In this document: positions 17,350 through 35,523 of the stretch, one piece after another
Layout of the letters: each line of letters begins with the position of its first letter
How positions within the stretch are numbered: the first letter of the stretch is position 1
NCBI GenBank assembly: GCA_902793335.1
Contig: CADBCZ010000029.1
Location: forward strand, 1-35,997
Length of the DNA stretch: 35,997 bases
Source of the DNA: an uncultured Lachnospiraceae bacterium
GTDB lineage: Bacteria > Bacillota > Clostridia > Lachnospirales > Lachnospiraceae
Direction: 5' to 3'
Notes under the pieces: model-generated
What the model saw: only the letters and a program-made list of their open reading frames with translations
Told to the model about the DNA's origin: nothing
Database searches by the model: none
Made by a program: the position numbers and the translations under genes

Positions 17350-17391
17350 CTGGGGTACAAGGATTCGAACCTTGAAATGACGGAGTCAGAG
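17350..17391 (-). repeat. attL: 42-bp copy of the tRNA-Gln 3' end
   Basis: This segment is identical to 35482-35523. It carries the last 42 nt of the tRNA, from the anticodon loop to discriminator G73, and then diverges into unrelated sequence at 17392. It is the displaced half of the crossover site. Confidence 0.95.
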
Positions 17392-17490: not shown

Positions 17491-17700
17491 TTACTTGAAC
17501 ATATTAAGCATTTCCTCTTTGCTCATTTTTTCATCATCAATCTCATACTTTTCCTTTGTATAATCGCCACTGCCACCATTATCAAACTGTTCAAGAAACT
17601 TCAATGTTCCTGTAACACCTAATTTACTTTTTAAAGCCTCTATCCCTATCGCTTGTATTTGGCTTTCCGGCATCACATCCATTTTAACTGCTGTTGTCAT
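17491..17700 (-). CDS. Probable antitoxin of the PIN pair
   Basis: A 69-residue protein beginning MTTAVKMDVMPESQIQ with the core IEALKSKLGVTGTLKFLEQF and the run GGSGDYTKEKYE. I recall this short family (variants read FLQQF...GDYTKER) as lying next to PIN-domain genes, where it would act as antitoxin. This is recollection rather than a search result. GGAGGTGATTTC precedes the ATG at 17700, which overlaps the PIN stop as ATGA, so the toxin gene comes first. An upstream in-frame ATG at 17721 would remove the overlap and lacks a binding site. It is the last gene before attL. Confidence 0.65.
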   Translation of the reverse strand: MTTAVKMDVMPESQIQAIGIEALKSKLGVTGTLKFLEQFDNGGSGDYTKEKYEIDDEKMSKEEMLNMFK

Positions 17701-18137
17701 GAAATCACCTCCAATAACCATTCTGTTGGACTCATTACCTTAACCTTTGCTGGTATTCTATTTGCATTATTCATAAATTTTTTATCTACAGTAAGCAGCA
17801 CATCAACATTAGCATATTCTGCACAAGCAAGATGAATACTATCTTTAGTTCTAATATTACTATATTCTCTAATATCGTATGCTCTTTCAATAATTGACTC
17901 TGTAACTTCAACTTCAGAGGAACAGAGAGAATACATCAATTCTAATCTTTCTCGTTTAAAAGCATCAGGAGTATCAGCTATTTCCTTAACAAGCATTTGA
18001 CTGCCACAAAGTTCAAACACGCCCTTTTCAACCAATTCCAAAACAATCATAACAGAATTACGATCAAAGTAAATAACCGGTTGACTTCTATCATCAAATA
18101 TTCTATTAAAACAACAATTGTCCATATATACTTTCAT
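17697..18137 (-). CDS. PIN-domain ribonuclease toxin (VapC-like)
   Basis: A 146-residue PIN domain. Acidic residues of the Mg site are visible: Asp in KVYMDNCCFNR near the N terminus, Glu in LVKEIAD, Asp in TKDSIHLACAE, and Asp in LLTVDKKF. These suit an RNA-cleaving toxin that acts on tRNA or other RNA, a family-based inference. GGGAG lies six nt before the ATG. The small putative antitoxin follows with a 4-nt overlap. As the unit abuts attL it may stabilize the integrated element or serve as an abortive arm of the defence cargo. Confidence 0.8.
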   Translation of the reverse strand: MKVYMDNCCFNRIFDDRSQPVIYFDRNSVMIVLELVEKGVFELCGSQMLVKEIADTPDAFKRERLELMYSLCSSEVEVTESIIERAYDIREYSNIRTKDSIHLACAEYANVDVLLTVDKKFMNNANRIPAKVKVMSPTEWLLEVIS

Positions 18138-18414
18138 GAAGAACTCCCTTGAAGTCTATTGACTATTGATATAATAATAACACAACATCAAAATAATATC
18201 TATATAATTCACAAGTTTTTTAGCATCACGTCATATTAATATCCCTTACTCTATCATATAAAACTTGACTCAAATCACACATTCCATACGCCTCGCAATC
18301 TTTGCGAAAACTGAAACTTAATGAAGATTAAATCTTATAAATAAAGATTAAATTCGCCAAACACTATTTGACAAATTGGGATTATTCAAAATACAAACAT
18401 AAATAATTATATTA

Positions 18415-18702
18415 TTATAAATTGTTACCACAAAATCGAATATTTCCATTCAATAATATATCTGCCCGATCTTCCGGCGTTTTACTCAAATCTGTTAACA
18501 GATCAAAAAATAATTGTTCTGCACCTTCACCATCATTATAGTAACATTTATTAGCATTACGTAAGAGCACACCATATAATCTATCTAAACCATCAAGATT
18601 TCCGCCAACATGCCCTACTCCAAGCCAATTTTCAAAACCTCTATCCAACTGCTCTATTGCATCTGAAACCTCTATCAACGCTATATAATCTTCCTTTGTC
18701 AC
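18415..18702 (-). CDS. Unknown 95-residue acidic protein
   Basis: The protein reads TKEDYIALIEVSDAIEQLDRG, then GNLDGLDRLYGVLLRNAN, and later FFDLLTDLSKTPEDRADILL. It is acidic, mainly helical and soluble, with no signal peptide. I do not recognise the family. The GTG start at 18702 has AGGGGG eight nt upstream. It follows the cargo XRE gene after a terminator hairpin, so it likely has its own transcription or readthrough. It could be a small regulator or an anti-restriction/immunity-type partner; only position supports a defence link. Confidence 0.6.
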   Translation of the reverse strand: MTKEDYIALIEVSDAIEQLDRGFENWLGVGHVGGNLDGLDRLYGVLLRNANKCYYNDGEGAEQLFFDLLTDLSKTPEDRADILLNGNIRFCGNNL

Positions 18703-18791
18703 ATTTAATCCCCCTAATATATAGTTCTATAAACCGTCATATCATTCTTTAGATATAATCTTAATTCAATAGACCTAAAATATCAAGAGAA

Positions 18792-18827
18792 AAAGAGTAG
18801 ACCATATTCGAATATAGAACTACTCTT
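18792..18827 (-). terminator. Terminator of the cargo XRE gene
   Basis: Arms AAGAGTAG (18793-18800) and CTACTCTT (18820-18827) enclose a loop with the self-complementary ATATTCGAATAT. The minus strand continues in TTTTTCTC. The stop codon of the XRE gene lies in the right arm. Confidence 0.85.
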
Positions 18828-19137
18828 CTACAAATATCCTTACAATATCAATTATTTTCTTCCTGTCTTTTGCCGGAAGCTTTGCAATCATCTCAGCAAA
18901 CTCACCAGGTACACCAACCGAAGAATGATCAACCGAATCTATAAGCAATTCGTCACAAGACACTTCCAATGTATTAGCTATTGCTACAAATGTATCTAAC
19001 TTAGGTACTTTTATACCTCGTTCTATTACACTCACATGAGTGGAACTTAAATCAACCAAAGCAGCTAATTCTTCTTGTGTAAGATTCTTACGTTCCCTAG
19101 CTTCCTTAATACGTTTGCCCACCATACCTATATCCAT
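18820..19137 (-). CDS. XRE-family transcriptional regulator (cargo)
   Basis: A 105-residue protein with an N-terminal helix-turn-helix (GKRIKEARERKNLTQEELA, then LSSTHVSVIERG) and a C-terminal helical tail (EFAEMIAKLPAKDRKKIIDI). The ATG at 19137 has GGAGG 7 nt upstream; an upstream in-frame start would place the operators inside the coding region. It resembles the small controller proteins of restriction-modification systems and phage repressors in size. Two GAAC-N8-GTTC palindromes in its own leader suggest autoregulation. It lies right after the NTPase gene and may set the timing of the cargo. Confidence 0.88.
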   Translation of the reverse strand: MDIGMVGKRIKEARERKNLTQEELAALVDLSSTHVSVIERGIKVPKLDTFVAIANTLEVSCDELLIDSVDHSSVGVPGEFAEMIAKLPAKDRKKIIDIVRIFVEE

Positions 19138-19147
19138 ATATACCTCC

Positions 19148-19228
19148 TTTAGAACTATCATTCGTTCTAAAATAAGTATAAATGGACTATACACTTTATT
19201 ACAGAATTTAAAGAACAACCATTTGTTC
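19148..19228 (-). promoter_or_regulatory. Two GAAC-N8-GTTC operators before the XRE gene
   Basis: Site 1 (19148-19171) has 8-bp arms TTTAGAAC and GTTCTAAA around 8 nt. Site 2 (19213-19228) has GAAC and GTTC around 8 nt. The centres are 61 bp apart, close to six turns. A third degenerate copy lies at 19233-19250. They sit between the KAP gene stop and the XRE start and should bind the XRE protein, which would repress itself. Confidence 0.7.
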
Positions 19229-19346
19229 CGAAGAACCATTCCGCTTCTAAATAACTTTCTCTGAATAAACTTTTTGGACGTATTTCTCTAAGAGCGCTTT
19301 AGTTATTATTATCACTAATCTGTTCTATATCTTGAACATACATTTT

Positions 19347-21242
19347 TCATTCAGTATCTTTTTGAATGCATATTTTTATTAGCTGTTCAATAGTTTGCAT
19401 AAATAATTCCGCATGTTTTTTTGCAATAACCCTACCATTATTATCATAATTTAACTTTAAATCTAAAAGTAATTCACTTAACTTTTTAAAGCCAACAAGA
19501 CTATCCTTAATATCAATATCACTCGATATAATCAATTTTTCCCACATTGATTTAAACCAATATATTCCATTACATTTATCTTCATTACTTGCTTTATCAA
19601 ACGAGTCAGCAGTTACAACAGCCATTTCCTCATCAAAACTATAAAATTGTTTATTATTTAAATAGATAAAACACGTCATAAAACTATTTCTTGTTTTTTT
19701 AATATAAATATCCCTATTATGCCAAAGTACTAACTTATTGCTATTTCTAAAATTACTTATTATTTCGTAAGTCTCCCATTCATCCTTTGTGAATATGTTT
19801 TTCGAATTATCATCTAGAACATTTTCACAAAGATCAACCAAAGAATCATCTTCCAACATTTTTTGAATACAAATATTGACTCCCTTTTTTACCTCATCCC
19901 ATTTTATTGATTCTTTCAACTGATAATCACAATATCTAAGCTGGTAACTATTTATAATTAGTTGAACATAATCATCTAATTCAAGTTTCCCTAAATAAGC
20001 AGCATTAATCACTCCTGACATTCCAATTTTAACAACATCTTCATCAATATATAATAATGAATTACCTTTAACTACTTCAAAAGGATCATCAGCATTTCTT
20101 CTAGAAATAATATCTTCTATTTCTTTCTGCATCAATTCTTCATTCCAAACACCAAAACGAATCCATGTTTTTTCCGCGGGTAAAATATATCCGTTTTCGA
20201 ACTCAGGATACAATTTACCAAATAAACCTGTTGGAAATGGCACTTCTATTTCTTCCCAATCAATTATTCCTGCTCTATATGACAATACACAAGTTACAAA
20301 ACTTTTGAACCAAACTTCAATATCTGTAACATTGTTTTTTTCTAACATCTTATATACTCTATAAAAATCTGCTATCGCACATTTCAAACTTCTAATATTA
20401 TGCGTTCTTTTCTCTTCACTCTTATCAAAAGCTTTTTCTCTGTAAGGTGCAAATAAATCTATCAAGTCTGATTCATTCTTTATTACAAAATCTTTGTACT
20501 CATCATCCTGATATTTAAATGTATTAATAACATTTTCAATTATCTGCGAGTAATTTGGTAAATATTTTACAGTCCTCTTAATAATTTTTTCTTTTATCTC
20601 ATCATAAGTAATATAATTATAATTATCTTTCGGAATAGCAACTGTAACACTTCCCTTTTTCTCAATTACTGATTGTTTATTTTGCTCATCAACAAGTTCT
20701 ATTTTACCCTTTATTATTTGGGAAGCATTAATAGACTTAATTTTCTCTTGATTTGCAACAATAATAACGTGAATTTTTTTGTTTTCACAGTAATCATTTA
20801 TTACACCTAATAGTTCTACGATATTTATTTTGCAACGTTCCAAATCATCAAAAACAAGTATCACTCTCTTTTCATTAATCGTATTACTAACTTCAAGAAA
20901 TGATACCCAATCCGTAGCAGCTACTTCTCTTATTACTTCTGGCAAAAAAGACATACCAGACAATAATTCTTTTGTCTTATGTGCTACATCTGTTTTTTTC
21001 TCGCCTATTTTTTCTTTTGAATATTCTCTCAACCATAAATATTTTATTTCAGAATGAATTTGATCAACATTTGCCATTCCAAACAATGATACTCTTATAA
21101 TAACAAAACCTTCTACAAGTCTCTTACGCAAATCATGTTCAATCAAATATGTTTTTCCACATCCCCATTCGCCTTCTAACATTATCGCACCTATAGGCTC
21201 AGGCTCATTGCAATAATAAACCAATTCATCTATTGTTTTCAT
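19347..21242 (-). CDS. KAP-like P-loop NTPase of the defence cargo
   Basis: A 631-residue protein with Walker A GEWGCGKT (24-31) and Walker B RVILVFDDLERC (126-137), followed by VIIVANQEKIKS, all typical of KAP-family NTPases. Known KAP proteins include QatA of the Qat phage-defence system and other membrane-associated ATPases. No clear transmembrane helix is visible in this copy, so it appears cytosolic. The C-terminal 350 residues are helical and Lys/Asp-rich with no recognised domain. GAGGG lies just before the ATG, and the gene starts 32 nt after the methyltransferase gene, in the same operon. A role in sensing or regulating restriction is inferred. Confidence 0.8.
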   Translation of the reverse strand: MKTIDELVYYCNEPEPIGAIMLEGEWGCGKTYLIEHDLRKRLVEGFVIIRVSLFGMANVDQIHSEIKYLWLREYSKEKIGEKKTDVAHKTKELLSGMSFLPEVIREVAATDWVSFLEVSNTINEKRVILVFDDLERCKINIVELLGVINDYCENKKIHVIIVANQEKIKSINASQIIKGKIELVDEQNKQSVIEKKGSVTVAIPKDNYNYITYDEIKEKIIKRTVKYLPNYSQIIENVINTFKYQDDEYKDFVIKNESDLIDLFAPYREKAFDKSEEKRTHNIRSLKCAIADFYRVYKMLEKNNVTDIEVWFKSFVTCVLSYRAGIIDWEEIEVPFPTGLFGKLYPEFENGYILPAEKTWIRFGVWNEELMQKEIEDIISRRNADDPFEVVKGNSLLYIDEDVVKIGMSGVINAAYLGKLELDDYVQLIINSYQLRYCDYQLKESIKWDEVKKGVNICIQKMLEDDSLVDLCENVLDDNSKNIFTKDEWETYEIISNFRNSNKLVLWHNRDIYIKKTRNSFMTCFIYLNNKQFYSFDEEMAVVTADSFDKASNEDKCNGIYWFKSMWEKLIISSDIDIKDSLVGFKKLSELLLDLKLNYDNNGRVIAKKHAELFMQTIEQLIKICIQKDTE

Positions 21243-21274
21243 ATAACCCTCAAATTATTCAAAGTAAATATTGA

Positions 21275-23134
21275 TTATAACTTAATAATAGTTTCATCTC
21301 CACATATATTCCTCACCTTCAACCTTAACGGTTTTTCTCTGCAACATACTCTACAATCCCAAAATTCGTTTGTTTTATTTCCGTTAACAATCATATACCC
21401 TAACTTGTCAATTTTCACTTCACCATCAGAATGCCACTCCCCACTATCAGATGTGCAATCCAAACTCAAAAATTCAATTAATTCTAAGCCATCTTCACTA
21501 ATTACAATAGGCTTAAACGGTTTCTTTTCTGTCGCATTCATCCTTGATTTGTTATTAAAATCACTTATTTTATTCATAACCCTATCACTAATAAATTTAT
21601 CAATATAAACAGCATAGCCTCCAAATAAATCTTCATGTAATTCTTCAGTATGTGTTTCGATATAATCCTCAATTACGACATCATCCAGTACCACCTTTAA
21701 ATCCCTTAATTCAATTTCAACGGTTGTGCTATCATCTTCTTTTATGAACTTATTAATCTCATTAATGTCGGTAATATCTACATAATAAACAATAACTTTC
21801 TTTATAGTACTATTCAACTCAGGAATTGCTTGATGAATAATTCTATTGATCATTACTTTGTCTAGCAATTTGCTTGAGCTATCCATCAAATTAGGAACAT
21901 ATACTGGAATCATTCCAAGTTTACTATCACTAATTGCCCCCTCCCAAAATGAATCCAACGAATCCTCATTCTTTAGTCCTGGTATCAATTCTTTTATCTT
22001 ATCCATTGTTTGCACAGGATTTCTAAAAAGCTGCACGCCATCCTTAATCTCAATTATATCAAATTCTGCTTCTGTTTTTCTCAATCTATCTCTCGTTGTT
22101 TGAATTGAATTAATACCAATATCACAATGTATAAATTTACGATTTAATCGACTAGCAACAGCGGCAGTAACACCACTCCCCCCAAAAAAATCAGCAACAA
22201 TCATTTTCTCATCACTAGAAGCCCCAATAACTCGTTCCAATAATGACTCAGGTTTTTGGGTTGCATACCCAACCGGTTCTTCTTTATCAGCAGGTTGTAA
22301 CATCGACAATCTCCAAACATTGTCAATTTGTCTTTCTGTACTCATATATGTAATTGCTTTTCCATTTTCATCTTTATCATTTTGTATCTTTCCATCAACA
22401 AAACTATACTTTAACTTTTTTACTGGTTTGTCTCGTTCTTCCGTCAAATGATGAAACGTAAAACCAGAATTTCTATTTTTCACATAATATAAAATCATAT
22501 CAGTTGCTCTTGGAAAAACTTGTTTAGTAGCACCATGCAACTTATTATAATAGTACCAATAAATATCATTTTGATAATTGTCTTCTCCGAATATTTCATC
22601 CATTATAATTTTTACATAATGACCAATATGAAAGTCTAAATGTACATAAATAGATGATGTTTCACTCATTATAGATTTAATAGCCATTAGATTCTCATAA
22701 ATCCAATTGAGATATTTTTCTTTATCCCATACATCTCCATACATTTTTTCTTCAAATGCCTTTAATTCTTCAATATCTAGCTCTTTCTCAGCTTGTTTAA
22801 TGGCTTCTGCCACTTTAGGGTTTCTGCGAATATATACTTTTTTCGCATAATCAGCTCCACTCGCAAAAGGCGGATCGATATAAACTAAATCAACCTGAAT
22901 TCCTCTATTTTTCAAATATGCACAAGCCGAGATACATTCTCCTCTAATTAACATATTACCGTCCAAATTGTCACCTATAATTTCTTGTCTTTCAACTTCA
23001 TATAAAGGCATACCACGTTGTAAAGTCATTGATAATTCATCAACACCTTTATACTTTAAAACTCTATTAAAATTTGATAATACTGCTTGTCCCTCAACTG
23101 GTTCAGGAACAAATGGTACATATTTTATTGGCAT
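21275..23134 (-). CDS. mod: Type III Mod-like adenine-N6 DNA methyltransferase
   Basis: A 619-residue beta-class methyltransferase. Motif IV is VDLVYIDPPFAS (Asp-Pro-Pro-Phe, residues about 83-94, with Phe in place of the more common Tyr), and motif I is ADFFGGSGVTAAVA (about 313-326), after ATQKPESLLERVI. The region between them is the target recognition domain. A C-terminal extension of about 250 residues is as in Mod subunits. It would methylate adenine and also specify Res cleavage. The ATG at 23134 has GGAGG eight nt upstream and lies one nt after the Res stop, so the two are co-translated. The target sequence cannot be read. Confidence 0.88.
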   Translation of the reverse strand: MPIKYVPFVPEPVEGQAVLSNFNRVLKYKGVDELSMTLQRGMPLYEVERQEIIGDNLDGNMLIRGECISACAYLKNRGIQVDLVYIDPPFASGADYAKKVYIRRNPKVAEAIKQAEKELDIEELKAFEEKMYGDVWDKEKYLNWIYENLMAIKSIMSETSSIYVHLDFHIGHYVKIIMDEIFGEDNYQNDIYWYYYNKLHGATKQVFPRATDMILYYVKNRNSGFTFHHLTEERDKPVKKLKYSFVDGKIQNDKDENGKAITYMSTERQIDNVWRLSMLQPADKEEPVGYATQKPESLLERVIGASSDEKMIVADFFGGSGVTAAVASRLNRKFIHCDIGINSIQTTRDRLRKTEAEFDIIEIKDGVQLFRNPVQTMDKIKELIPGLKNEDSLDSFWEGAISDSKLGMIPVYVPNLMDSSSKLLDKVMINRIIHQAIPELNSTIKKVIVYYVDITDINEINKFIKEDDSTTVEIELRDLKVVLDDVVIEDYIETHTEELHEDLFGGYAVYIDKFISDRVMNKISDFNNKSRMNATEKKPFKPIVISEDGLELIEFLSLDCTSDSGEWHSDGEVKIDKLGYMIVNGNKTNEFWDCRVCCREKPLRLKVRNICGDETIIKL

Positions 23135-23135
23135 T

Positions 23136-26000
23136 TTATTCTCCTCCAAAAAACTTTTTTATTGTTTTATGAACAGTTATAATTTGCTCATCTTCAGATT
23201 GACTATCTTCTAAATACAAATATGAAAATCTTTCATAACCATACTTCTTATTATTTTGCTTTATAAAAAATTTCTCCATAAACTTTTTCTTTTCGATAAA
23301 ATTATTATCATTAGCATATATCCCGCCTTTTGTTTCTACGATGACCATTTTTTCTATCTCATTCTCATTTTTTCTCTTAATAATTACAAAATCCGGGAAA
23401 TATGCCCCGACGTATATCCATCCATTGCCTACATTTTTATAACATTTAATATTAAATTCTGTTAGTATATCATCTCCATTATAATACAATTCTAAATTTA
23501 AATTATTTATATCGCTTAAAGACAAAACCTCTTTTATAAATTTTTGTTCAAACTTACTGTCTGTTTTATATGGCAAATAATGAAATGATCTATCCTTGTT
23601 TTTATGTGAATAATATTCTAGTTCTAATTCTATAAGTATTTTTTCATTACCTATTCTCTGTGCATAATCCATAAACTCTTTTGTTTTTTTATCTGGTATC
23701 AACTTTCCATTATCGTCTTTTATAATTTTTTCAACCACTTCAGAATCAGGATAATAATCTTCCGGGTGCTCAGTTTTTACTTCACTTGTAAAATTATTAA
23801 TCTTTAATAATTCCGCTTTTTCAGGCACTAATTCTTCGATAGTATTATATTCCCGCTTATCAAAAAAAGCTTTTCTAATATTACTTTCTACTTTCTTTCT
23901 ATCATATTTTGAAGAAAAATAAGTAATATCATCTTGGTTATATGTAATAATATTAAAAATCACCTTAAGTTTTTCGTCATAATTTTTTAGTTCTTGTAGT
24001 GATGGTGTTCCAAAACCATTTTTACTGATATAATAAAGCCACTTTGTATAATCTGCTATTTCATCCCCATATTCTTTATCATCAACTATTCTTTCCCCAG
24101 CATTAAATGATAAATCCGTAATCCTTTTAATACCATCCTTTTTACCGGTATTTAAAGTTGACTTATTTATACCATTATAAACATCTGCTTGTTCAACAAT
24201 GAGAGTATTATAATTTATTCTTAATTGATAATAATCTATAGCCGGAACATTCAATCTTTTCATTCTATTATATCTTTTAAGTTCCACCATGTCATTTTTA
24301 ATACTTTGAAACTCTTTTAGAGATAAATGTTCGTGCTGAATCAATTGTTTATTTAATTTTTCTGCATTACTTTCATTTAGATATATGAGAGCCGTTTCGA
24401 TCTTATTCTTATCTACTTGCCTTAAACATCTACAAGAAGTTTGTAAAACCATATTATTAGGACAATCCCCTTCTTGAGATAAAATGATCCCTGTTAAACT
24501 TTTACAATCCCACCCCTCTTTTCCAATGTGAACCAATAATACTATTCTAATATCAGAAATATCTTTATCAAGCGTTTCAAATTTCATTTGACTATCTATA
24601 GGCTGAGGATATTTGGGATTACCCCTATGATACTTTAAAATACATTCTAACGGCATATTATATTCTCTCAAAATATTCGCAACAATAGGATAAACCATCT
24701 CCTCTAGTTTTTCTATCGTACTACAGTATATCCCTAGTTTAGCCGTAGTCCCGTCAGAATATTTTTTATCTTTATATTTATCAAGGAATTCCCTTACTCC
24801 ACTTTCAATAATATTTGCTGTTGTTGCATTGGAAATTATTTCAACAGTAGGTTTTTTTAAAAAATTTCCTATACCTTTTATCAAAGAATAATAATATACC
24901 ACATTTGTTATTTCCATTGTTCCAATATTCAAATTATCATAAACACTTATTTTCTCCATTTTATCAATATAAGGAGTACCAGAAAAACCTATTACAGAAT
25001 TAATGATATTATTTTTTGCCCATGAGTTAACTACAGCTCTTAATTTTATTTCATTACTAACAGCATGGTGCATTTCATCAATAAATATGGATAAATATGG
25101 CAGCTTTCCTAATAAATTCCTCAATTCATTCGCTTGTCTATCTCTATCATCGTCCGTTTCTTCAAACAAACATAATTGACCGTCTTTTTCAATTATTCTA
25201 TCAAGAATAACTTTTTCTGCATTTGTAACCGCAACTAATCCAAACAATTCTGACAACGGCTGATGATTAGCTATTTTTTGAACATTTGGATTTTTTGTTT
25301 TATTTGATTTGCTTTTTGTTTTATACTGATCCAATACTTCAAAAATCATATTTCTTTTAATATTACTTGCTGCAGGTTCAGGTATTACCCAATCAGGTTC
25401 AAACCTCTGTATAGTTTTTAAACTAGGTATAACTGATGCTTTTAATCCAGACGGGGCAAAAACAATAAAATTATGTGCAAAAGCCGGATTTAATGGTTCA
25501 TTCATTGCAAAATATAAATCTAGATATATAAAACAAGCCATTAGAAATGTCTTTCCTGCCCCCATAGGAAGACTAAACAAATATTCCGTATAGCTCACAT
25601 TATAAAACATCTCATTAAAAACATTTTTATAGTCAATACTATCAGGCTCTTTTTTAATATGGTTTTCAATTTTTTCAGATACTTGTTCCCCTTTTTCATT
25701 TTTTAACATGGAATATTCTAATAGAGCTACAGCTTCAGAGTGTGTTGTTAAATATGCTCTTGTTGATGTTGATACTTCTAATTCATCTATATCTAATGAA
25801 TTAAAATAGCCTTCTATAAACAATGTGCTTAATGGTTTGCACTGACATTTTATTTTTAAAAATAAATATGTTTTAATTGCCTGTATTTGAACATCTCTTA
25901 ACATGTGTCTATTTTCCATGTATGATATTACATCATTAATAGAACACTCTTCTGATTCATACCACTCATCACACTTTTTTTTAATCATTTTATAAAACAT
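23136..26000 (-). CDS. res: Type III Res-like helicase-nuclease
   Basis: A 954-residue superfamily 2 ATPase with Walker A LPMGAGKT (144-151), DEMH box (about 306), SGTP (about 340), the Res-typical motif GKEGWDC (about 495), and QTSCRCLRQ (about 522). The C-terminal end has YFPDFVII and IVETKGG (about 868-890), the PD-ExK nuclease site. With Mod it would translocate or diffuse on DNA and cut between opposed unmodified sites. GGAGGG precedes the ATG. Res is translated before Mod, the reverse of the usual type III order. It follows the membrane-anchored gene by 41 nt. Confidence 0.9.
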   Translation of the reverse strand: MFYKMIKKKCDEWYESEECSINDVISYMENRHMLRDVQIQAIKTYLFLKIKCQCKPLSTLFIEGYFNSLDIDELEVSTSTRAYLTTHSEAVALLEYSMLKNEKGEQVSEKIENHIKKEPDSIDYKNVFNEMFYNVSYTEYLFSLPMGAGKTFLMACFIYLDLYFAMNEPLNPAFAHNFIVFAPSGLKASVIPSLKTIQRFEPDWVIPEPAASNIKRNMIFEVLDQYKTKSKSNKTKNPNVQKIANHQPLSELFGLVAVTNAEKVILDRIIEKDGQLCLFEETDDDRDRQANELRNLLGKLPYLSIFIDEMHHAVSNEIKLRAVVNSWAKNNIINSVIGFSGTPYIDKMEKISVYDNLNIGTMEITNVVYYYSLIKGIGNFLKKPTVEIISNATTANIIESGVREFLDKYKDKKYSDGTTAKLGIYCSTIEKLEEMVYPIVANILREYNMPLECILKYHRGNPKYPQPIDSQMKFETLDKDISDIRIVLLVHIGKEGWDCKSLTGIILSQEGDCPNNMVLQTSCRCLRQVDKNKIETALIYLNESNAEKLNKQLIQHEHLSLKEFQSIKNDMVELKRYNRMKRLNVPAIDYYQLRINYNTLIVEQADVYNGINKSTLNTGKKDGIKRITDLSFNAGERIVDDKEYGDEIADYTKWLYYISKNGFGTPSLQELKNYDEKLKVIFNIITYNQDDITYFSSKYDRKKVESNIRKAFFDKREYNTIEELVPEKAELLKINNFTSEVKTEHPEDYYPDSEVVEKIIKDDNGKLIPDKKTKEFMDYAQRIGNEKILIELELEYYSHKNKDRSFHYLPYKTDSKFEQKFIKEVLSLSDINNLNLELYYNGDDILTEFNIKCYKNVGNGWIYVGAYFPDFVIIKRKNENEIEKMVIVETKGGIYANDNNFIEKKKFMEKFFIKQNNKKYGYERFSYLYLEDSQSEDEQIITVHKTIKKFFGGE

Positions 26001-26041
26001 ATAATCCCTCCAACTTACACATCAGATTATCACTATTACTA

Positions 26042-26587
26042 CTACCACTTTTCATCAATAAATTTTATCATTCTCCTAACAAGTCTCCACAATTCATCAG
26101 GACTCTTTTCAAATTTCAATATTATTATTTCTCTATATTTACATCCAAGTACACTTTTAATATATATATCTATTGTCACATCTATGAATTTTTGTTTTTT
26201 TTCAGTTTCATTAAGCGGTATTATTATACCATAACATTCATTTTGTTCGATTACGCTTACAAACAAATCGAGCAAATCTTCATTTTCTACAATTCTATTA
26301 TTTACCATTATTTTTCTTTTATTGACGAAAACATCGCTATTACCTCTTAACCAAAATGGTAATGCTCCGTCAAGATCATATAAATATCTAACATGATTAC
26401 AATACTCAACGTCTTTATATTCACTTGATTCAAACATACTTTTTTTCACCAAATTACTATCTTGCAATATAAAGTAACCTCTTTCCTTTTTTTGCGATTG
26501 TTTATCTATTTTGCGTGACAACTTATATTGCATTGCTATCAATATTATTTCTAATGCCGCAAGAATTATATTCCAATTTATTTCCAC
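26042..26587 (-). CDS. Membrane-anchored protein of unknown function
   Basis: A 181-residue protein whose N terminus has one hydrophobic helix (IILAALEIILIAMQ), followed by a basic run (SRKIDKQSQKKER) that predicts an internal C-terminal domain. The rest is globular with YLYDLDGALPFWLRG and WRLVRRMIKFIDEKW at the end. I do not recognise it. The preferred start is the GTG at 26587, six nt after GAGGAG; an upstream GTG at 26605 has no binding site. It is the first gene of the Res-Mod-NTPase operon, so it may be a membrane sensor or anchor of the defence complex. Confidence 0.7.
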   Translation of the reverse strand: MEINWNIILAALEIILIAMQYKLSRKIDKQSQKKERGYFILQDSNLVKKSMFESSEYKDVEYCNHVRYLYDLDGALPFWLRGNSDVFVNKRKIMVNNRIVENEDLLDLFVSVIEQNECYGIIIPLNETEKKQKFIDVTIDIYIKSVLGCKYREIIILKFEKSPDELWRLVRRMIKFIDEKW

Positions 26588-26679
26588 AATACTCTCCTCA
26601 TTCACATCATTATAATAAACATTCCTTTTATATTACACTATTTATTTATAATATTAAAGTATTTATTTTAATCTGCTTA

Positions 26680-27021
26680 TTAATCCATCACCGCAGTACA
26701 AAACACTTCCTCAGCTCCCATCTCAACAAGCTCATTCTCTATCTGCCTTAACATCAAGTATTCAAAATATTCTCCATCTATATCAAAGAATGACGGATAG
26801 ATTCTGTAATTTACACCTTCATATCTGAATACTTCACTTGTTCCCTTGACCGGACAATAAAATGCGTTTTTGTAATAATCCTCTTTATTTTTCTCTGCGT
26901 ACTCTTTCCACTTCGTAAATAATAAATTAAGCTCCTTTGGGATTTCTCCTATGTTCTCACTTGTAATCGTAACAAAATCTCCCTGCAATGCCATATAACC
27001 TGCCTTATAACCCTTACCCAT
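26680..27021 (-). CDS. Unknown 113-residue protein
   Basis: The protein reads GKGYKAGYMALQGDFVTITSEN, KELNLLFTKWKEYAEKNKEDYY, and later FDIDGEYFEYLMLRQIENELVEMG. It looks soluble and acidic with alternating strand and helix character. I do not recognise a family. The ATG at 27021 has AAAGGA ten nt upstream; GTG at 27027 is the other choice. A terminator-like hairpin separates it from TnpV, and a 74-nt AT-rich gap separates it from the operon with the membrane-anchored protein. It may be part of the cargo or a small element protein. Confidence 0.65.
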   Translation of the reverse strand: MGKGYKAGYMALQGDFVTITSENIGEIPKELNLLFTKWKEYAEKNKEDYYKNAFYCPVKGTSEVFRYEGVNYRIYPSFFDIDGEYFEYLMLRQIENELVEMGAEEVFCTAVMD

Positions 27022-27061
27022 AATCACCGCATCCTTTCTTCTTTTATTATTATAATGAAAA

Positions 27062-27088
27062 CGATCTGGAGAAAAGCTCCCCAGACCG
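27062..27088 (-). terminator. Terminator between TnpV and unknown gene
   Basis: CGATCTGGAG (27062-27071) pairs with CTCCCCAGACCG (27077-27088), with one bulge, around a 5-nt loop. The minus strand then reads TTTTCATTAT. It probably ends the element backbone transcript. Confidence 0.7.
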
Positions 27089-27096
27089 TATTACAT

Positions 27097-27474
27097 TTAC
27101 AACTGATATACTATTTCTGAAAATACAATCTCGTCAACACGATTGTTAATAGAATTCATTCTGCGTACCCACTCCATTTGATCGTCAGCTTTCAATTCTT
27201 CCGTAACACCTTCCGCAGCCATCATTTGAGCAGCTATTCTTTCTGCACGTTCTTCTGCCTGCTTCTGTATCTCAAGGCAATGTGATAATAACGTACCCTT
27301 TAACAGCTTTCCGGTATAAATACCCCTATGGTGTTCCTTCAGGAATGTTTCACGAAGCATTCCATACTTTGATAAAAATTGTTCATCATCTCCAGTTTCA
27401 TTTATATCTGTCTGTTCATTATACTCAAGATCAGGAATCAGATAGTCTCCCTCATTGTGATATTTAAGTTCCAT
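27097..27474 (-). CDS. TnpV protein, full length
   Basis: A 125-residue TnpV homologue with GDYLIPDLEYNEQ, LKEHHRGIYT, KQAEERAERIAAQM and an ending QMEWVRRMNSI then RVDEIVFSEI. Its length fits the family. TnpV proteins travel with clostridial integrative elements; the role is unknown. AAAGGAGC lies six nt before the ATG. It is 40 nt downstream of the relaxase gene. A truncated relative is at 93-383, evidence that a related element once lay near the left edge. Confidence 0.85.
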   Translation of the reverse strand: MELKYHNEGDYLIPDLEYNEQTDINETGDDEQFLSKYGMLRETFLKEHHRGIYTGKLLKGTLLSHCLEIQKQAEERAERIAAQMMAAEGVTEELKADDQMEWVRRMNSINNRVDEIVFSEIVYQL

Positions 27475-27514
27475 AGCAGCTCCTTTCTGCCTGTTGACAC
27501 TTATATGCTATTGT

Positions 27515-29071
27515 TTATAGTGACATTCCTCTGTCTCTCTTTCGTTCCTTTGGCAACAATTCACTAATACCATTAGATATTCCGATATGCTTATCCACAT
27601 CATCAGCTATATCGTCAAAACCATGATCTTTTGCTCTTACTGAAACATATTTCGATAAAGCCTCTATGAGATTACTTTGTTTAGTAGTAAGATTTGCTCT
27701 GTAAGAATCTTTGGAATATACAAGCATTCCGGCAGCTTTTACAACACATGCAAGATAACCATACGCCTGCTTCACCGTATCTTTAAGCTCCTCAATCTTT
27801 TTGTTCAAAGGCTCCGTTGCAGCTTTCAACTTTTTATCAAATGCTTTTTTCAGCATTTCAAGTTCCCATTGCACTTCAAGTTTTTCATGCGTAAGTCTAT
27901 CTATTTTAAGTTCCAATTTGTCTATCGTATCTTCTCTAGCTTCGTACTTTTCCTGAAGCTTCTCATATCTTTCATTGAGTTCAAGCTGCTCATTATATTT
28001 TTCAATATAATCTTCCTTGTATCTCTTGACAGCATTACGTTGTATCTCTGCACTTCTTAATATACCCTCTGCCTTGTACTCTGTCAACGAAAGTATCTCT
28101 TCACTTCTGTTTTGTGCAGCAGAAAGACTTTCCTTTGACCTTTCCCTGTTTTGTGCTGCCTCCTCTTTCATTTCTGCTATCTGTTTAAGTTCTTCTTTTC
28201 CCTCCTTAATCAGCTCCTTAGCTGCTTTCTCATGCGCCATAGACAGCCTCGATCTCTTTTCAAGCTTTTCCAATTCGGATTTTTCCACCATAACCTTTGT
28301 TTTGCTAAAAGGGACAGAAGATTCTTCAATCTGTCTTGGCATGCTTTTCACTTCATTATGTATCTGCTCCACAGTTGCTTTATACTGATCTACCGTCATG
28401 TGTTCCCTATGAAGTCCCTTATCTGCAGTGCGCTTAATACCATACCTGCCCATAATGTCCTCAATGACATTCTTCTCTTGCTCCTGCCAGCATTTATTTC
28501 TGTTATTATGCTTATTCACCTTCCCCTCTACCTCAACTCCCATTTCCTTAAGAGCTTTATCAAGACTGTTACGTGCCATCATGCCCTGCTTATACTCTCT
28601 TGCTATGGGTATATAATCTATATGCAGGTGTGGTGTTTTTTCATCAAGGTGCATTACCGCATTAAACACATAAAGGTTTGGATTTCTTTCACTAAATGAA
28701 AGCATATAATCATCAAGTATCTTCTTTGCCACATCCCCAAGCTCAGATCCAACCGAACAGTCCTGCATATTTCCCACCTGAACTACTATCTCATAGAAAT
28801 CCTTTTCCTTATTGCCGGAATGTCTGATCTTCTCAAGATAATCTTTTGCGCTCCCAATTTTTCTGTCCTTGCGTTTCTGCTTTGCATCATACTCCTCAAC
28901 AGCCCTTTCAAAGCACAAATCATAGGCTTCTTCTATCGCCTGCTTTGTGTAGGTTATATTATCCTTAATCCTGTTGGTATCCACGTTCTTTGTTACGAAC
29001 TCCCTGTTATTATGATTAAGACTTCCCCTTCCCTTTGTTACTGATACGCTTAAATATTGCTTTTTCTCCAT
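27515..29071 (-). CDS. mobV: MobV-family relaxase (Pre/Mob)
   Basis: A 518-residue relaxase. Motif I is SLNHNNRE with His20, equivalent to the catalytic His of MobM; motif III is MHLDEKTPHLHIDYIP, the metal-binding histidine cluster. The N-terminal 200 residues form the relaxase domain, and residues about 260-420 are a long coiled coil rich in Glu, Lys and Leu. It would nick the element at oriT and lead the strand into a recipient through a helper conjugation system. GGAGG lies upstream of the ATG. The hairpin-rich region just upstream (29221-29531) is the likely oriT. Confidence 0.93.
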   Translation of the reverse strand: MEKKQYLSVSVTKGRGSLNHNNREFVTKNVDTNRIKDNITYTKQAIEEAYDLCFERAVEEYDAKQKRKDRKIGSAKDYLEKIRHSGNKEKDFYEIVVQVGNMQDCSVGSELGDVAKKILDDYMLSFSERNPNLYVFNAVMHLDEKTPHLHIDYIPIAREYKQGMMARNSLDKALKEMGVEVEGKVNKHNNRNKCWQEQEKNVIEDIMGRYGIKRTADKGLHREHMTVDQYKATVEQIHNEVKSMPRQIEESSVPFSKTKVMVEKSELEKLEKRSRLSMAHEKAAKELIKEGKEELKQIAEMKEEAAQNRERSKESLSAAQNRSEEILSLTEYKAEGILRSAEIQRNAVKRYKEDYIEKYNEQLELNERYEKLQEKYEAREDTIDKLELKIDRLTHEKLEVQWELEMLKKAFDKKLKAATEPLNKKIEELKDTVKQAYGYLACVVKAAGMLVYSKDSYRANLTTKQSNLIEALSKYVSVRAKDHGFDDIADDVDKHIGISNGISELLPKERKRDRGMSL

Positions 29072-29531: not shown

Positions 29532-29900
29532 ATTCATGAAATCCATCACATCATCCGATATGCTGGATTCCACAGGCTCATTCACAATGCTTTGCGTTTC
29601 CGTTCCTGCATAAGCATAAGAATTATTATCTTTTTGCTTATCATCACTATCACACACACTTGTGAATATCGCCTTATCGCTTAACCTTTCGAGTATTCTG
29701 TCTGCAATCTTATCTGCAATATCCTCACCGTTATTGCAGGATGCGTTGCTGTTCCTCAAATGGTTAAGCTCCCATATCATAAATGCGTTAAGCGATTTCT
29801 GATATGCCATAGCCTCGCTATGCAGCCAGTTCCAAAGCTCCAGTTCTTCCTTATCCGCAAGATTGAAACGCAGGTGTAAGCATTTATTATTCCTATCCAT
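29523..29900 (-). CDS. Small partner of ParM (ParR-like DNA-binding protein)
   Basis: A 125-residue protein with CLHLRFNLADKEELELW at the N terminus, which could form a ribbon-helix-helix, and then a helical region (SLNAFMIWELNHLRN), a variable linker and an acidic C terminus (DDVMDFMNGF). The ATG overlaps the ParM stop by one nt (TAATG). Position after an actin-like ATPase gene matches ParR, which binds the centromere and the ParM filament end through its acidic tail. Homology to ParR itself is not visible, so the call rests on size and context. Confidence 0.6.
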   Translation of the reverse strand: MDRNNKCLHLRFNLADKEELELWNWLHSEAMAYQKSLNAFMIWELNHLRNSNASCNNGEDIADKIADRILERLSDKAIFTSVCDSDDKQKDNNSYAYAGTETQSIVNEPVESSISDDVMDFMNGF

Positions 29901-30826
29901 TACATCAACTCTTTCTGCATATTTGTATAAGCTGCAACCTCATATCCCACAGCAGTTGCACGAATGTCATCAATGTACTCAATCCTAGCTTCAGGAATAT
30001 CAATATACCTCTTAACGATTCCTGCACCACCACCCATAACTACAAGTCTCATTATCTCCGGATTATACTCATACTCCTTTAACCGATTGATGATTTCTGC
30101 CACATACTCCCTTGCGACCTTATCCATGACACTGATATACTTCTCCGGAAGTGCTGCATTACCCTTGATAAGAAACTCCTCACATGATTCATAAGGAATC
30201 TTATACTGCATCTTATTAAGGATTTCAGCCTGCATCTTTCTTATACAGCCCTCAACTCCCATCTGATCCGTATAGGATTTTGATGATACAGGCTTATGAT
30301 CGTAAATGTATATCACATTCATAGTACCGTTGCCTATATCAACAAGAATATTCATCCCGTCATAATCTTTCATCCGACCAGCAACCGCTGCAAAGCCTTG
30401 GGGAAACACATAAGCATTTATGACATTTATCTCATACTGAACATCCTTATATTCAAACTTCAATTCCTTATTCCTCATAAGATAATTTTTGAAGTTCTCC
30501 TTCTGTTCACCAAGCCACATAAGAGGAAGCCCTGCTGCTACCACCACATTCGCATTATCTATCTTTCTCACTCTCAATTCCTTAGCTAAGGCAGCTATTG
30601 TCAGATAGTAATAATCATCACTCAGCACCTTGTCCGGTTCATAAGATTTGTGATCCTCTCCCACAACAAGATACTTGTCCTCATACTTTACAACATCCGT
30701 TGCGATAGATGGCTCAGTATCCTTTACTATCACTCCTGTTCTGAAATGTGTATTGCGAGTTTTGATATTTCCAAAGCCATGATCTATCCCAATGATTTCA
30801 ATTCCTTTATAATTGTATCTCTCCAT
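29900..30826 (-). CDS. ParM-like actin-family ATPase
   Basis: A 308-residue protein of the actin/Hsp70 ATPase fold. Phosphate 1 motif is IGIDHGFGNIKT, phosphate 2 is NILVDIGNGTMNVI (near residue 157), and the adenosine motif is LVVMGGGAGIVKR (near 265). It resembles plasmid segregation ATPases such as ParM and Alp7A, which polymerize and push DNA copies apart. Length is near 320 as usual. The presence in an integrated element suggests a circular, replicating stage. The 82-bp concentric palindrome is just upstream and could be the centromere. Followed by a coupled partner gene. Confidence 0.85.
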   Translation of the reverse strand: MERYNYKGIEIIGIDHGFGNIKTRNTHFRTGVIVKDTEPSIATDVVKYEDKYLVVGEDHKSYEPDKVLSDDYYYLTIAALAKELRVRKIDNANVVVAAGLPLMWLGEQKENFKNYLMRNKELKFEYKDVQYEINVINAYVFPQGFAAVAGRMKDYDGMNILVDIGNGTMNVIYIYDHKPVSSKSYTDQMGVEGCIRKMQAEILNKMQYKIPYESCEEFLIKGNAALPEKYISVMDKVAREYVAEIINRLKEYEYNPEIMRLVVMGGGAGIVKRYIDIPEARIEYIDDIRATAVGYEVAAYTNMQKELM

Positions 30827-30876
30827 AATTGTTCCTTTCCGGCTTATGCCTGTATAATAATAAATTAAATAATTTT

Positions 30877-30964: not shown

Positions 30965-32326
30965 TTATTCAAATGCCAGATCATCACGATCACATTTAAC
31001 AAATCCGTCGTCATCGCACTCTTTCCTAAACCAATATTTCTGAATGCCATACTTCTTGAAACGATGAGTTTTATTATCAATTTGTATCCAGTCAGATATA
31101 CATTCTTTCATGATCCTATTGATTTCTTTAACTTCATAATGCTTGGGCTTGCCCTCTCCCCCAAGAGCTTCATTAAAAATCATAAGTGAACAAACATATT
31201 TCTCCGTTGTATCATCGAGCCATGCCCTTATAAGACCAACCGTAGTATCCTCCGGCAAGAAGTTCTCCTGCAATTTTGCAAGATAATTCTCTGTATCTGA
31301 CATAAACTTTAAGCTGTAATCTCCGCTTCTATACACCTGCATAGCTTCCGCCCAAAGCTGATCTATATACTCCCTTGATTCTTTTTCATCCTCAAGGATA
31401 TGCTTCTCAATTCTATCTGCATGGGTAAGTATTGGTGCAAACCGCCTGTTTCCCGTTCTGTCCATTGGAAGAAAATCCATATTATTAGTTGTTCCCACAA
31501 ATACACACTGTCTAGGTCTGTCCTTTGGAAACTTATCATATGGTGTCTTGTATGTTTCCTTCTGTCTGCTAAGGAATGACTTGATTTCCTCAATACTCTT
31601 TGCATTAACTGTTGCAATCATTTCTGACATTTCAATTATCCAATGACCATACAGTTTCCGAAAGACATTATCATCATCAAGGCGTCTCACATCATCGCTA
31701 AACCATTCATCTTTTATTGCAAGCAATCTGAACAATGTTGACTTTCCTATACCTTGTCCTCCCACAAGACATATCATCGTATCGAACTTAATACCGGGAG
31801 AATATATCCGGCTTATCAGTGCCATAAGCAACAGCTTTGTTGCCTCATAAGTATATTCACACTTATCCGCACCAATATACTTTGGTAAAAATTCTCCAAT
31901 CCTGCTTTTGCCATCCCACACAAGCTTTTCAAGGTAATCTTTAATGGGGTGATAACCATTTTCCGTTGCAACAACATTTATTGCCTTGAGCATTTTCTTA
32001 TCATTCATCAGCCCATAGTTGCTTTCCATATACATACAAAGATTATCAATATCATCGTCATTTATACTTTCACCTGCTGAACGTTTCCAAGGAAGTTTTC
32101 CGCATATATCATTACGGTCTGTCATTTCGTTTCTGCATATTTTTTCTTTCAGAAGCGGATCTTTATTCAGGACAATATAGTAATTAGGTATGCTTTGTTT
32201 AACTGCACCATCCTTGCGTTTAAGAAGCTGCTCATAGACATCATCAACAGTAGTCATTTCTCTGTCTATGATCTCCGCCACTTCCTGCCATGAAGCCTGC
32301 TCTGACGTTATCAATTCTCTCGACAA
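30965..32326 (-). CDS. VapE/VirE-type P-loop helicase
   Basis: A 453-residue protein with Walker A CLVGGQGIGKSTLFRLL, a Walker B-like segment GHWIIEMSEM, FVGTTNNMDFL and FRKLYGHW, matching the virulence-associated E family, primase-linked helicases of integrative elements and phage satellites. It would act with the zinc-finger primase in replication of the circle. No ATG fits the start: a TTG at 32326 has AGGGAGG nine nt upstream, while the first ATG is 23 codons later at 32257. The chosen start overlaps the primase gene by 83 nt. Confidence 0.85.
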   Translation of the reverse strand: MSRELITSEQASWQEVAEIIDREMTTVDDVYEQLLKRKDGAVKQSIPNYYIVLNKDPLLKEKICRNEMTDRNDICGKLPWKRSAGESINDDDIDNLCMYMESNYGLMNDKKMLKAINVVATENGYHPIKDYLEKLVWDGKSRIGEFLPKYIGADKCEYTYEATKLLLMALISRIYSPGIKFDTMICLVGGQGIGKSTLFRLLAIKDEWFSDDVRRLDDDNVFRKLYGHWIIEMSEMIATVNAKSIEEIKSFLSRQKETYKTPYDKFPKDRPRQCVFVGTTNNMDFLPMDRTGNRRFAPILTHADRIEKHILEDEKESREYIDQLWAEAMQVYRSGDYSLKFMSDTENYLAKLQENFLPEDTTVGLIRAWLDDTTEKYVCSLMIFNEALGGEGKPKHYEVKEINRIMKECISDWIQIDNKTHRFKKYGIQKYWFRKECDDDGFVKCDRDDLAFE

Positions 32327-32903
32327 TGGTTGACACCTCCCTCCGACCTTTAATGAAGAGTTCCATCTTCTCCTCTTCCGTTCCGGTGCAAAGGATATCA
32401 AGCATATAAGTGATGACAAGCTTATCATGATATAACACCGATATTTCCGGAATATCAAAAACAGCTCCCTGATACCTTGTGCTTAACTGTTCATCAATAT
32501 ATTTAATTGTATCTCTGCATTTACATAGGGAATTAACCGCTGAAAGACACCAGCCTTTGAACTTTGCCTCAATTCTCTGCTGATTCTTCTTTTCTACAAT
32601 CTTGCTTATTGCACTGGGAGATAACACCGAACTCTTTCCATCTTTAATCTGAAGTCCCATATCGGCTATTATCTTTAATGCAGCATCATACTGAGACAAA
32701 TCATATAACCTAGCCACGTAATCTATGGCATCACCCTTAGCACCACATCCAAAGCAGTAATAACGAGAATCTATCTTCATGCTAGGGTGCTTATCATTAT
32801 GAAACGGACAGCAAGCCATTCCATTTTTGCGTACACTAAGGCCGTAATGCTCTGCAACAGCCTTAGCTGTGACATAAGCATTGACCTTTTCAAAAATATT
32901 CAT
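32244..32903 (-). CDS. CHC2 zinc-finger primase
   Basis: A 219-residue protein with the zinc site CCPFHNDKHPSM and YYCFGCGAKGDAIDYV (about residues 31-62), the CHC2 domain of DnaG-type primases. No TOPRIM catalytic domain is visible, so it may supply DNA binding while VapE or another protein provides the rest. The ATG at 32903 has GGAGG 11 nt upstream; a TTG six codons earlier overlaps that site. The final 83 nt overlap the start of the helicase gene in a different frame, which indicates co-expression. Confidence 0.88.
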   Translation of the reverse strand: MNIFEKVNAYVTAKAVAEHYGLSVRKNGMACCPFHNDKHPSMKIDSRYYCFGCGAKGDAIDYVARLYDLSQYDAALKIIADMGLQIKDGKSSVLSPSAISKIVEKKNQQRIEAKFKGWCLSAVNSLCKCRDTIKYIDEQLSTRYQGAVFDIPEISVLYHDKLVITYMLDILCTGTEEEKMELFIKGRREVSTIVERIDNVRAGFMAGSGGDHRQRNDYC

Positions 32904-32997: not shown

Positions 32998-34290
32998 CTA
33001 CTCTTGAATGTCCTTGTTTCCAGCAGGGACATTCTTCTTTTCATTCAAGTCATTGTTCCTTATCTTCGGCATTGGAACAACCTGTGTCACCTCATTTCCC
33101 ATTACCACCTTCTTTCTTACCGCTATGTAATACCGTAATGTTGTAGATTCCAAATCTCCGATATAAGCTGCTATCTCCTTTACCGAAGCACCGTTCTCAT
33201 GCATACGAGTTGCAAATGTTCTTCTAAGTATATGCAGACCACTAACCTCATTAACAAAATCCACATGCTTATAAATTGTACTCATAAGGTGTTCCATCAT
33301 TGTATCGGTGTACTGTCCTCCGGTTTTCGTTCTGCAGATAAGGTCATTCGGCTTACCCGGATTAAGTTCTCTGATATTATTCAAATCATCAATAGCTTCA
33401 GGAAACAACTGAATAATCCTTGCCTTTTGATTCTTTGTTGTACCCTTATTAGAAAGGTACTTTTTTTCAGATTGAGATTTGGATCGGTTTCTTGCAAGTG
33501 ATGTGTTCTTATCAATCGTAAGCAGCCCTTTTTCTTCATTAAAGTCCTTCCATGTTAGACTGATAAGCTCACCAACTCTCATTCCCGTATGAAGTAACAG
33601 CCTGCCATACCAACCGCCTGCATATTTGTATTCACCATTGTTGGCATTTGTCCTTACTGTCTCCTGCAGGAATAGTTCTTCCTCTTCCTCAGACAAAACA
33701 ATTACATCCGCCTCCGCAGCATTCTTGCTCTCCAGCTTAGATAATCGTTTGACTATACTTTTCTTAATCTGAGCAACGGGGTTATAATCAATCTCTGTTC
33801 TCAATACCGCCCACTCATAAGCTGCATTCATTACATCAAGAGATTTCTTAATCGTTGATACTGAAAGATTCTTTTTTATTAGTGTACTAATATGATCTTC
33901 AACATCTGCCGGATTGACTGCTTGTATCTGCATCTTACCTATGGGATATTTTTCTATCTGATTCCTGATGGTATCTTCCCGTCTGTCTATTGATTTAGGC
34001 TTCAACTCATTATTCATTACCTGAAAATCAAGATGTCGCTGACATAACTCCTCAACCATATCGTAATCCTTAACAATAACCCTGCTGTTTCTCTTATTAA
34101 GAGCCTGCTCCTTTTCCTTCATACGTTTAACACATATCGCTTTGGTATCTCCCACCACTGATATGTATTTCCTCTTGCCATTGGGATTGTATCCGGCACT
34201 CTTTCTATATATGAAAGTACCATCTTCTCTTTCAATAAACGTTCCATTCCCTCTGGCATTTCGCTTTTTCTTTTCTTCCAGATGTACCAC
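32998..34290 (-). CDS. int: Tyrosine recombinase (integrase)
   Basis: A 430-residue tyrosine recombinase. The N-terminal part (about residues 10-60) is an arm-binding domain like that of Tn916-type integrases; a core-binding SAM-like domain follows (100-180). The catalytic Arg I is in HTGMRVGELISL, the HxxR segment is HILRRTFATRM, and the nucleophile Tyr is in STTLRYY. The usual His/Trp after the Gly (LGH) is an Asp here (YIGD). The start is uncertain: GTG at 34290 directly abuts AAAGGAGG, and a CTG three codons on would give better spacing. It sits 13 nt after xis. Confidence 0.92.
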   Translation of the reverse strand: MVHLEEKKKRNARGNGTFIEREDGTFIYRKSAGYNPNGKRKYISVVGDTKAICVKRMKEKEQALNKRNSRVIVKDYDMVEELCQRHLDFQVMNNELKPKSIDRREDTIRNQIEKYPIGKMQIQAVNPADVEDHISTLIKKNLSVSTIKKSLDVMNAAYEWAVLRTEIDYNPVAQIKKSIVKRLSKLESKNAAEADVIVLSEEEEELFLQETVRTNANNGEYKYAGGWYGRLLLHTGMRVGELISLTWKDFNEEKGLLTIDKNTSLARNRSKSQSEKKYLSNKGTTKNQKARIIQLFPEAIDDLNNIRELNPGKPNDLICRTKTGGQYTDTMMEHLMSTIYKHVDFVNEVSGLHILRRTFATRMHENGASVKEIAAYIGDLESTTLRYYIAVRKKVVMGNEVTQVVPMPKIRNNDLNEKKNVPAGNKDIQE

Positions 34291-35481: not shown

Positions 35482-35523
35482 CTGGGGTACAAGGATTCGA
35501 ACCTTGAAATGACGGAGTCAGAG
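35482..35523 (-). repeat. attR: 42-bp direct repeat within tRNA-Gln
   Basis: This copy is part of the intact tRNA and is identical to 17350-17391. It spans from the anticodon loop to the discriminator base, so integration re-creates a complete tRNA. Confidence 0.95.

Follow-up and report, generated by a model that had tools for sequence, protein, structure and literature searches.

On the minus strand of a 35,997-nt stretch of DNA from an uncultured Lachnospiraceae bacterium (the window), four co-directional genes encode a single-helix membrane protein (MEM), a helicase-nuclease (Res), a DNA methyltransferase (Mod) and a KAP-family NTPase. The question raised by this locus is whether the four proteins work as one system or whether a restriction-modification (RM) pair stands beside genes of other origin. 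The first-pass annotation had favoured a composite type III machine in which a membrane-linked ATPase senses or controls restriction. No description of the MEM-Res-Mod-KAP arrangement was recognised in the literature searched, which covered few subscription papers and hardly any bioRxiv preprints.

Layout of the locus

In the ORF list the genes run in the order MEM, Res, Mod and KAP, separated by 41, 1 and 32 nt (Table 1). The shared direction and these gaps, as first reported, are confirmed by the ORF coordinates; the gaps hold because Mod is taken to start at ATG 23134, the start used by its relatives, the listed ORF beginning at TTG 23149. An alternative start of MEM at GTG 26587 (181 aa) has a better ribosome site (GAGGAG). 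Gene spacing suggests that the block is co-transcribed. A terminator-like hairpin (27089-27061) precedes the gene of the 115-aa protein, and the transcription unit may accordingly comprise five genes; equally, the hairpin may be a chance occurrence, since the count of such hairpins (3) is near that of shuffled sequences (1.6, sd 1.3). Promoter-like sites were at shuffle level (62 against 63.9) and no promoter is claimed.

Table 1. Features of the window, ordered by position.
Feature	Position	Strand	Basis
Attachment repeat, left end, 42 bp exact	17350..17391	+	Repeat search; empty-site-like sequence in L238, L239
PIN-domain protein, element end	17697..18137	-	Pfam PIN 7.2e-8
Cro/CI-type HTH regulator	18820..19239	-	Pfam HTH_3 4.7e-15; likely true start ATG 19137
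KAP-family NTPase, 631 aa, slot behind Mod, PADLOC PDC-S49	19347..21242	-	Pfam KAP_NTPase 1.8e-14, PADLOC
Mod, beta-class DNA methyltransferase	21275..23134	-	Pfam N6_N4_Mtase 2.4e-40; profile matches 4zcf and 6k0w first
TRD of Mod (hypervariable specificity segment), residues 193-288 counted from ATG 23134	22271..22558	-	Pairwise identity
Res, SF2 helicase with C-terminal PD-(D/E)XK motif, 954 aa	23136..26000	-	Motifs, Pfam, fold model
MEM, single-helix membrane protein, 187 aa	26042..26605	-	GTG start; no Pfam family
115-aa protein	26680..27027	-	74 nt before MEM; possible first gene of cargo transcript
TnpV	27097..27474	-	Pfam 1.6e-36
MobV-type relaxase	27515..29071	-	Pfam Mob_Pre 8.7e-9
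Actin-like (ALP) protein	29900..30826	-	Pfam ALP_N 8.1e-15
VapE-like protein	30965..32458	-	Pfam VapE-like 2e-68
Phage-type (tyrosine) integrase	32998..34290	-	Pfam Phage_integrase 2.9e-16
Attachment repeat, right end, 42 bp exact	35482..35523	+	3' part of tRNA-Gln gene (35481-35554)

An integrase, a relaxase, a VapE-like protein, an actin-like protein and TnpV are encoded between the repeats at the tRNA-Gln gene, features that predict an 18.1-kb integrative mobilizable element with the block as its cargo. The G+C content is 26-32% in the 1-kb windows of 18001-27000 against 34-40% in those of 27001-35000. The right flank was matched in 23 genomes (own included) and the tRNA region was fetched from five congeners. 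In L238 and L239 the 35 bp that flank the element on its left (89-91% identity) directly abut the tRNA gene, an empty-site-like junction of the kind expected; the remaining left flank is unmatched there, and the left flank has no match in L240 and L242.

A sister element in genome G584 (contigs C23 and C192; L241, L243 and L244) occupies the same tRNA-Gln. Three backbone blocks, from 34478 to 26950, share 94-96% DNA identity with the window, and the encoded proteins are 99% (integrase), 90% (VapE), 98% (actin-like) and 96% (relaxase) identical. The likeness ends at window position 26950, inside the 115-aa ORF. Beyond this point G584 encodes a 119-aa hydrophobic protein and then an HTH-like protein whose gene runs off the contig; its cargo was readable to there. 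Since a near-identical backbone is followed by different cargo, the MEM-Res-Mod-KAP segment is most likely an exchangeable one. An inverted repeat at 19133-19186 (23-nt arms, 83% complementary) overlaps the likely start of the HTH gene at 19137 and is a possible autoregulatory operator.

Res and Mod across genomes

The SF2 and PD-(D/E)XK motifs originally noted in Res are present in an alignment of 35 Res sequences. The helicase motifs are GAGKT (147-151; A148 nearly invariant, the other residues invariant), DE.HH (308-312), SGTP (340-343), GKEGWD (493-498) and QT.CRC (520-525); the nuclease motif, by our own reading, consists of PDF (869-871) and ETKG (889-892). Pfam recognises ResIII (1.7e-5) and, below its cut-off, RE_endonuc (0.003). 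The fold model (pLDDT 85) matches SF2 enzymes of many kinds. RadD is first among the 50 matches listed, the type ISP enzyme LlaBIII ranks 11 and EcoR124I HsdR ranks 46; EcoP15I is not among these 50. The Res profile gave no match to solved structures at E up to 0.01.

The DPPF (87-90) and FFGGSG (316-321) motifs of Mod, numbered from ATG 23134, are likewise found in an alignment of 36 Mod sequences, F317 being nearly invariant. By profile, Mod matches EcoP15I Mod (4zcf) at 7.7e-22, another chain named Mod at 1.9e-21 and the type II enzyme MboIIA at 3.8e-21. Mean pairwise identity among the 36 sequences (630 pairs) is 18% in the TRD vs 66% in the remainder. The Mods of two Bacteroides caecigallinarum strains (L027 and L051) have ends that are 98% identical and centres that are 16% identical, and for L053 and L087 the figures are 67% and 88%. 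Because of these opposed end and centre identities, the TRD appears to have been exchanged between Mods. With its profile relationship and its central variable TRD, Mod resembles a type III Mod.

Scanning genome contigs gave 142 Res relatives, the best 80 of which were kept as loci; their sources are Bacteroidales, Clostridia, Helicobacter, Brachyspira, Gastranaerophilales and others. Gene calls in these loci come from a simple script that takes the longest ORF, so that starts and small genes are rough, and L091 was excluded from gene counts as its Res gene could not be called. In 74 of the 79 callable loci Res is followed by a Mod on its own strand, immediately adjacent in 60, and none of the 79 has a Mod within four genes before Res. 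Among the five loci with no called Mod, L022, L038 and L050 reach the contig end, L088 is interrupted and its Mod cut by the contig end, and L093 has none. Res relatives are present in 4 of 220 genomes of the window's family and in 3 of 348 genomes of a phylum draw, the window's own genome included in both counts.

A four-part composite would imply that KAP and MEM accompany Res and Mod. A tblastn search (1e-4) of the 80 Res loci, all from other genomes, found relatives of the window's KAP in 0/80 and of its MEM in 0/80; several of these loci stop shortly behind mod. Within this search, then, KAP and MEM adjoin Res-Mod in this genome only.

The Res-Mod relationship resembles that of the type III systems EcoP1I and EcoP15I, which have the same two adjacent genes and a beta-class Mod with a central variable segment. 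According to the available part of one source, EcoP1 and EcoP15 mod have conserved ends and a non-homologous central third, and in EcoP1 mod is followed by res after a 2-bp gap (PMC3874151). The order seen here, with res ahead of mod in 74 of 79 loci, is the reverse of that in EcoP1; we treat order as typical of type III systems rather than essential to them. Unlike in the type III comparison for Mod, the window Res has no solved-structure profile match and EcoP15I is absent among the 50 fold matches listed. We call the pair type III-like only, since the fold of Res points to SF2 enzymes in general. The data support a stand-alone type III-like RM pair, and make Res-Mod the core of the system, with the TRD and the gene behind Mod as its two variable parts.

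The gene behind mod

A co-directional gene within 100 nt follows Mod in 48 of 68 loci. Before Res the figure is 20 of 68, and for the other neighbour pairs in the same loci it is 296 of 645; the 68 loci are those in which that side has a gene of at least 100 aa, and since the Res loci are interrelated, these counts and any tests on them are not independent. Pfam was run on 40 of the 48 slot genes, the other eight being relatives of scanned ones. By our sorting, 15 of the 40 are of defence type, 9 look like ordinary chromosomal genes and 16 are DUF-only, weak or unmatched; 12 of the 40 have no Pfam match above its cut-off. The 15 defence-type genes, a few of whose matches are below cut-off, comprise AbiH (3), SIR2 (2), STAND/NACHT (3), AAA_15/21/23 (3), HamA (1), KAP (1), SLATT (1) and Fic (1). 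Before Res, 18 of the 20 co-directional genes were scanned (two Res fragments were excluded), and several of the 18 are of defence type too (GmrSD, CHAT, Schlafen AlbA, AbiJ). Part of the slot pattern is thus general clustering of defence genes, given the nine ordinary-looking genes among the 40 and the defence types before Res.

L069 and L070 share 85-89% DNA identity through res and mod, starting upstream of res, broken at the TRD and ceasing about 20 nt short of the mod stop. Beyond mod, L069 has a SIR2 gene and L070 a KAP gene. Among the 27 pairs in which Res is more than 85% identical and both members have a slot gene, the slot genes are unrelated in 21 and related in 6; four of the 21 involve an ordinary gene. 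The position behind Mod thus reads as an exchangeable slot among these relatives.

The KAP in the L070 slot matches QatA at 2.4e-86. This QatA-like gene and three further genes lie directly behind Res-Mod (L070:14787-19438), the third gene after KAP begins, by eye, like TatD, and the slot may hold a whole Qat system.

KAP and its neighbourhoods

The KAP-like NTPase proposed for the block was recovered by Pfam (Table 1). It also matches PADLOC PDC-S49 at 1.8e-42, mainly over the ATPase half. The 'S' presumably stands for single-gene; the PADLOC library gives no function for the entry and our literature search found no paper naming it. PDC-S49 also matches all five KAP relatives tested, three of which lie beside type I RM genes. 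In the fold model (pLDDT 79) an ATPase domain can be made out, and the C-terminal half is mostly helical. A fold search returned low-TM matches only (ORC subunits, RdrA), and these were not used to assign a function.

Two further assignments were considered. The first-pass annotation had likened the protein to QatA and described it as a membrane-linked ATPase. The window KAP shares the KAP-type ATPase with QatABCD, but it has no QatA match at E up to 0.1 (PADLOC) and the genes that follow it encode an HTH protein, a protein of no recognised family and a PIN protein, and membership of QatABCD was rejected. The measure that finds one hydrophobic stretch in MEM finds none over threshold in KAP, so the NTPase itself has no membrane helix. 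Tmn, by contrast, has a KAP-type ATPase with two transmembrane domains in the part of the source available (PMC11846954), and membership of Tmn was likewise dismissed.

At E up to 1e-5, 4 of the 348 genomes in the phylum draw carry a KAP relative; at E up to 1e-10, 8 of the 220 genomes of the family do, the window's own genome being counted. Among 12 KAP neighbourhoods outside the window, one of them from its own genome, three contain Pfam-confirmed type I RM genes: L103 (KAP, a 61-aa protein, HsdM, HsdS, HsdR), L106 (HsdM, an AbiJ-like protein, KAP, HsdR) and L125 (HsdM, HsdS, a 124-aa protein, KAP). No RM gene was recognised in the other nine, judged from the gene listing with Pfam scanning there confined to a kinase in L122; L122 and L124 are cut on one side. 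Three of 23 plasmid records with KAP were read, and one of the three (L010) has a small MTase beside the KAP relative. In IMG/VR, where KAP identity is 22-34%, Res/Mod relatives were absent from 80 of 80 viral KAP loci (80 of 82, each covering up to 6 kb on either side). The place of KAP behind this Res-Mod may reflect a single event, since its family was not found behind another Res-Mod.

On one viral contig (L129:6001-11772) KAP is directly followed by genes for an ATPase of the OLD-TOPRIM type and a UvrD helicase. We take this latter pair to be Gabija-like. The window's own genome encodes a second, distant KAP (30%; G000:C2:78962-80209, L108), and the 19 kb read there contain no relative of Res or Mod.

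MEM

The single-helix membrane protein of the original description stands, MEM having one hydrophobic stretch (residues 6-24). Its sole credible relative is found in G407 (L220:8214-8732, 38-40% identity), 160 nt behind a gene for a DpnII/MboI-like nuclease (Pfam 1.9e-55) and one for a 1072-aa Eco57I-type methylase. PADLOC calls the methylase type IIG and the nuclease 'Aga helical REase', a name that we take to belong to Argonaute systems. In our own reading these RM genes are type II-like. No KAP relative occurs near this MEM relative in the 19.9 kb read. Two members beside two types of RM genes are suggestive of an association of MEM with RM.

MEM relatives were found neither in 25 congeners nor in plasmids, phages or IMG/VR, where scans require exact short peptides. 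The 348-genome phylum draw yielded none apart from two weak matches, dismissed as lying inside proteins that read, by eye, as methionyl-tRNA synthetases. A weak match of 67 residues in G491 was also discarded; its frame has three stops and stands, by eye, among sugar/glycan-like genes.

Discussion

We propose that the locus consists of a stand-alone type III-like Res-Mod core carried as element cargo, an independent defence gene (KAP) in an exchangeable slot and a rare accessory gene (MEM) before res, an account that we consider probable. Mod would methylate the site read by its TRD, and Res, using ATP, would cut DNA that lacks the mark; in type III systems such ATP-dependent cleavage requires two sites in inverse orientation. 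KAP would provide a separate, second layer of defence: as an ATPase it would sense infection and shut down the infected cell, following an Abi-like logic. With its one helix as anchor, MEM would be an effector or regulator on the membrane side. The short gaps between the genes may bring shared expression and some coupling.

Coupling could be closer than this. KAP, and MEM with it, might be linked to the RM pair in the manner of PrrC and EcoprrI, kept silent by an intact Res-Mod and triggered once a phage blocks restriction. Its place 32 nt behind mod would suit such a role, as would the type I RM genes that adjoin KAP relatives in three loci and the small MTase in the plasmid locus; that RM systems are coupled to suicide genes has been published as a hypothesis (PMC3506569; for PrrC, PMC12707154). 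However, an RM gene was recognised in none of the nine other KAP loci (from the listing, two cut on one side), all 80 viral KAP loci are without Res/Mod and slot genes change while Res-Mod stays. We regard this guarding role as unlikely. An extension of it would have MEM as a founding member of an undescribed family of RM companions anchored in the membrane, whose two members so far stand beside different RM types; together with KAP, MEM would guard restriction and strike at the membrane once a phage disarms the nuclease. This is rather more speculative.

KAP and MEM might at the other extreme be unrelated element cargo, neighbours by chance, and MEM might have no part in defence. Both the different cargo of the sister element beyond 26950, as far as it is readable, and the great rarity of MEM fit this reading; against it, KAP belongs to a family of defence candidates and the sole MEM relative also lies beside RM-type genes, making chance association improbable. 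Least credible is the four-part machine originally suggested, in which Res would be controlled by an ATPase that is linked to the membrane and senses infection. The common strand and short gaps agree with it, but the KAP and MEM of this block recur in none of the 80 Res loci, the MEM relative adjoins other RM-type genes with no KAP and KAP has no membrane helix; we give it very little weight. Of the first interpretation, the type III-like RM pair is supported, and so is the placing of KAP in a family of defence candidates whose members occur repeatedly next to RM genes; the composite of four parts is not supported.

The separate slot gene that we prefer is of a known kind, as RM systems with companion genes have been described already; the details here are new. 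Defences embedded in immune systems are reportedly the subject of a preprint by Payne et al. PrrC of EcoprrI and other RM-linked companions are likewise defence or suicide genes linked to an RM locus, in the parts of the sources available (PMC12707154, PMC3506569). Unlike PrrC, the window KAP lies behind and not inside the RM genes and has other domains, and its coupling would be hypothetical. The Res-Mod family offers a natural experiment, with a conserved core whose close copies differ in TRD and slot gene. The published hypothesis that RM loci have suicide-type back-ups could be tested here by swapping the slot gene alone, and the slot can also serve as a catalogue of candidate defence genes.

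Some relatives carry accessory genes between res and mod. One family starts with DYREKLG (L015, L019, L221), and two sets encode small proteins with a hydrophobic start (L082, L083 and L085; L015 and L075). The intervening genes scanned in L221, L015 and L075 gave no Pfam match. In a distant branch, on plasmids L002-L008 and also in L223, Mod and Res are preceded by the gene of a UvrD-type helicase; L006 has a PD-(D/E)XK gene between helicase and Mod, and L005 two other genes there. These plasmid systems were set aside as distant (Res 23-29% identity over all 22 records, 7 of which were read) and as having Mod before Res. On one viral contig a TIR-domain protein (1.4e-19) is encoded behind Res-Mod (L211:5167-5634).
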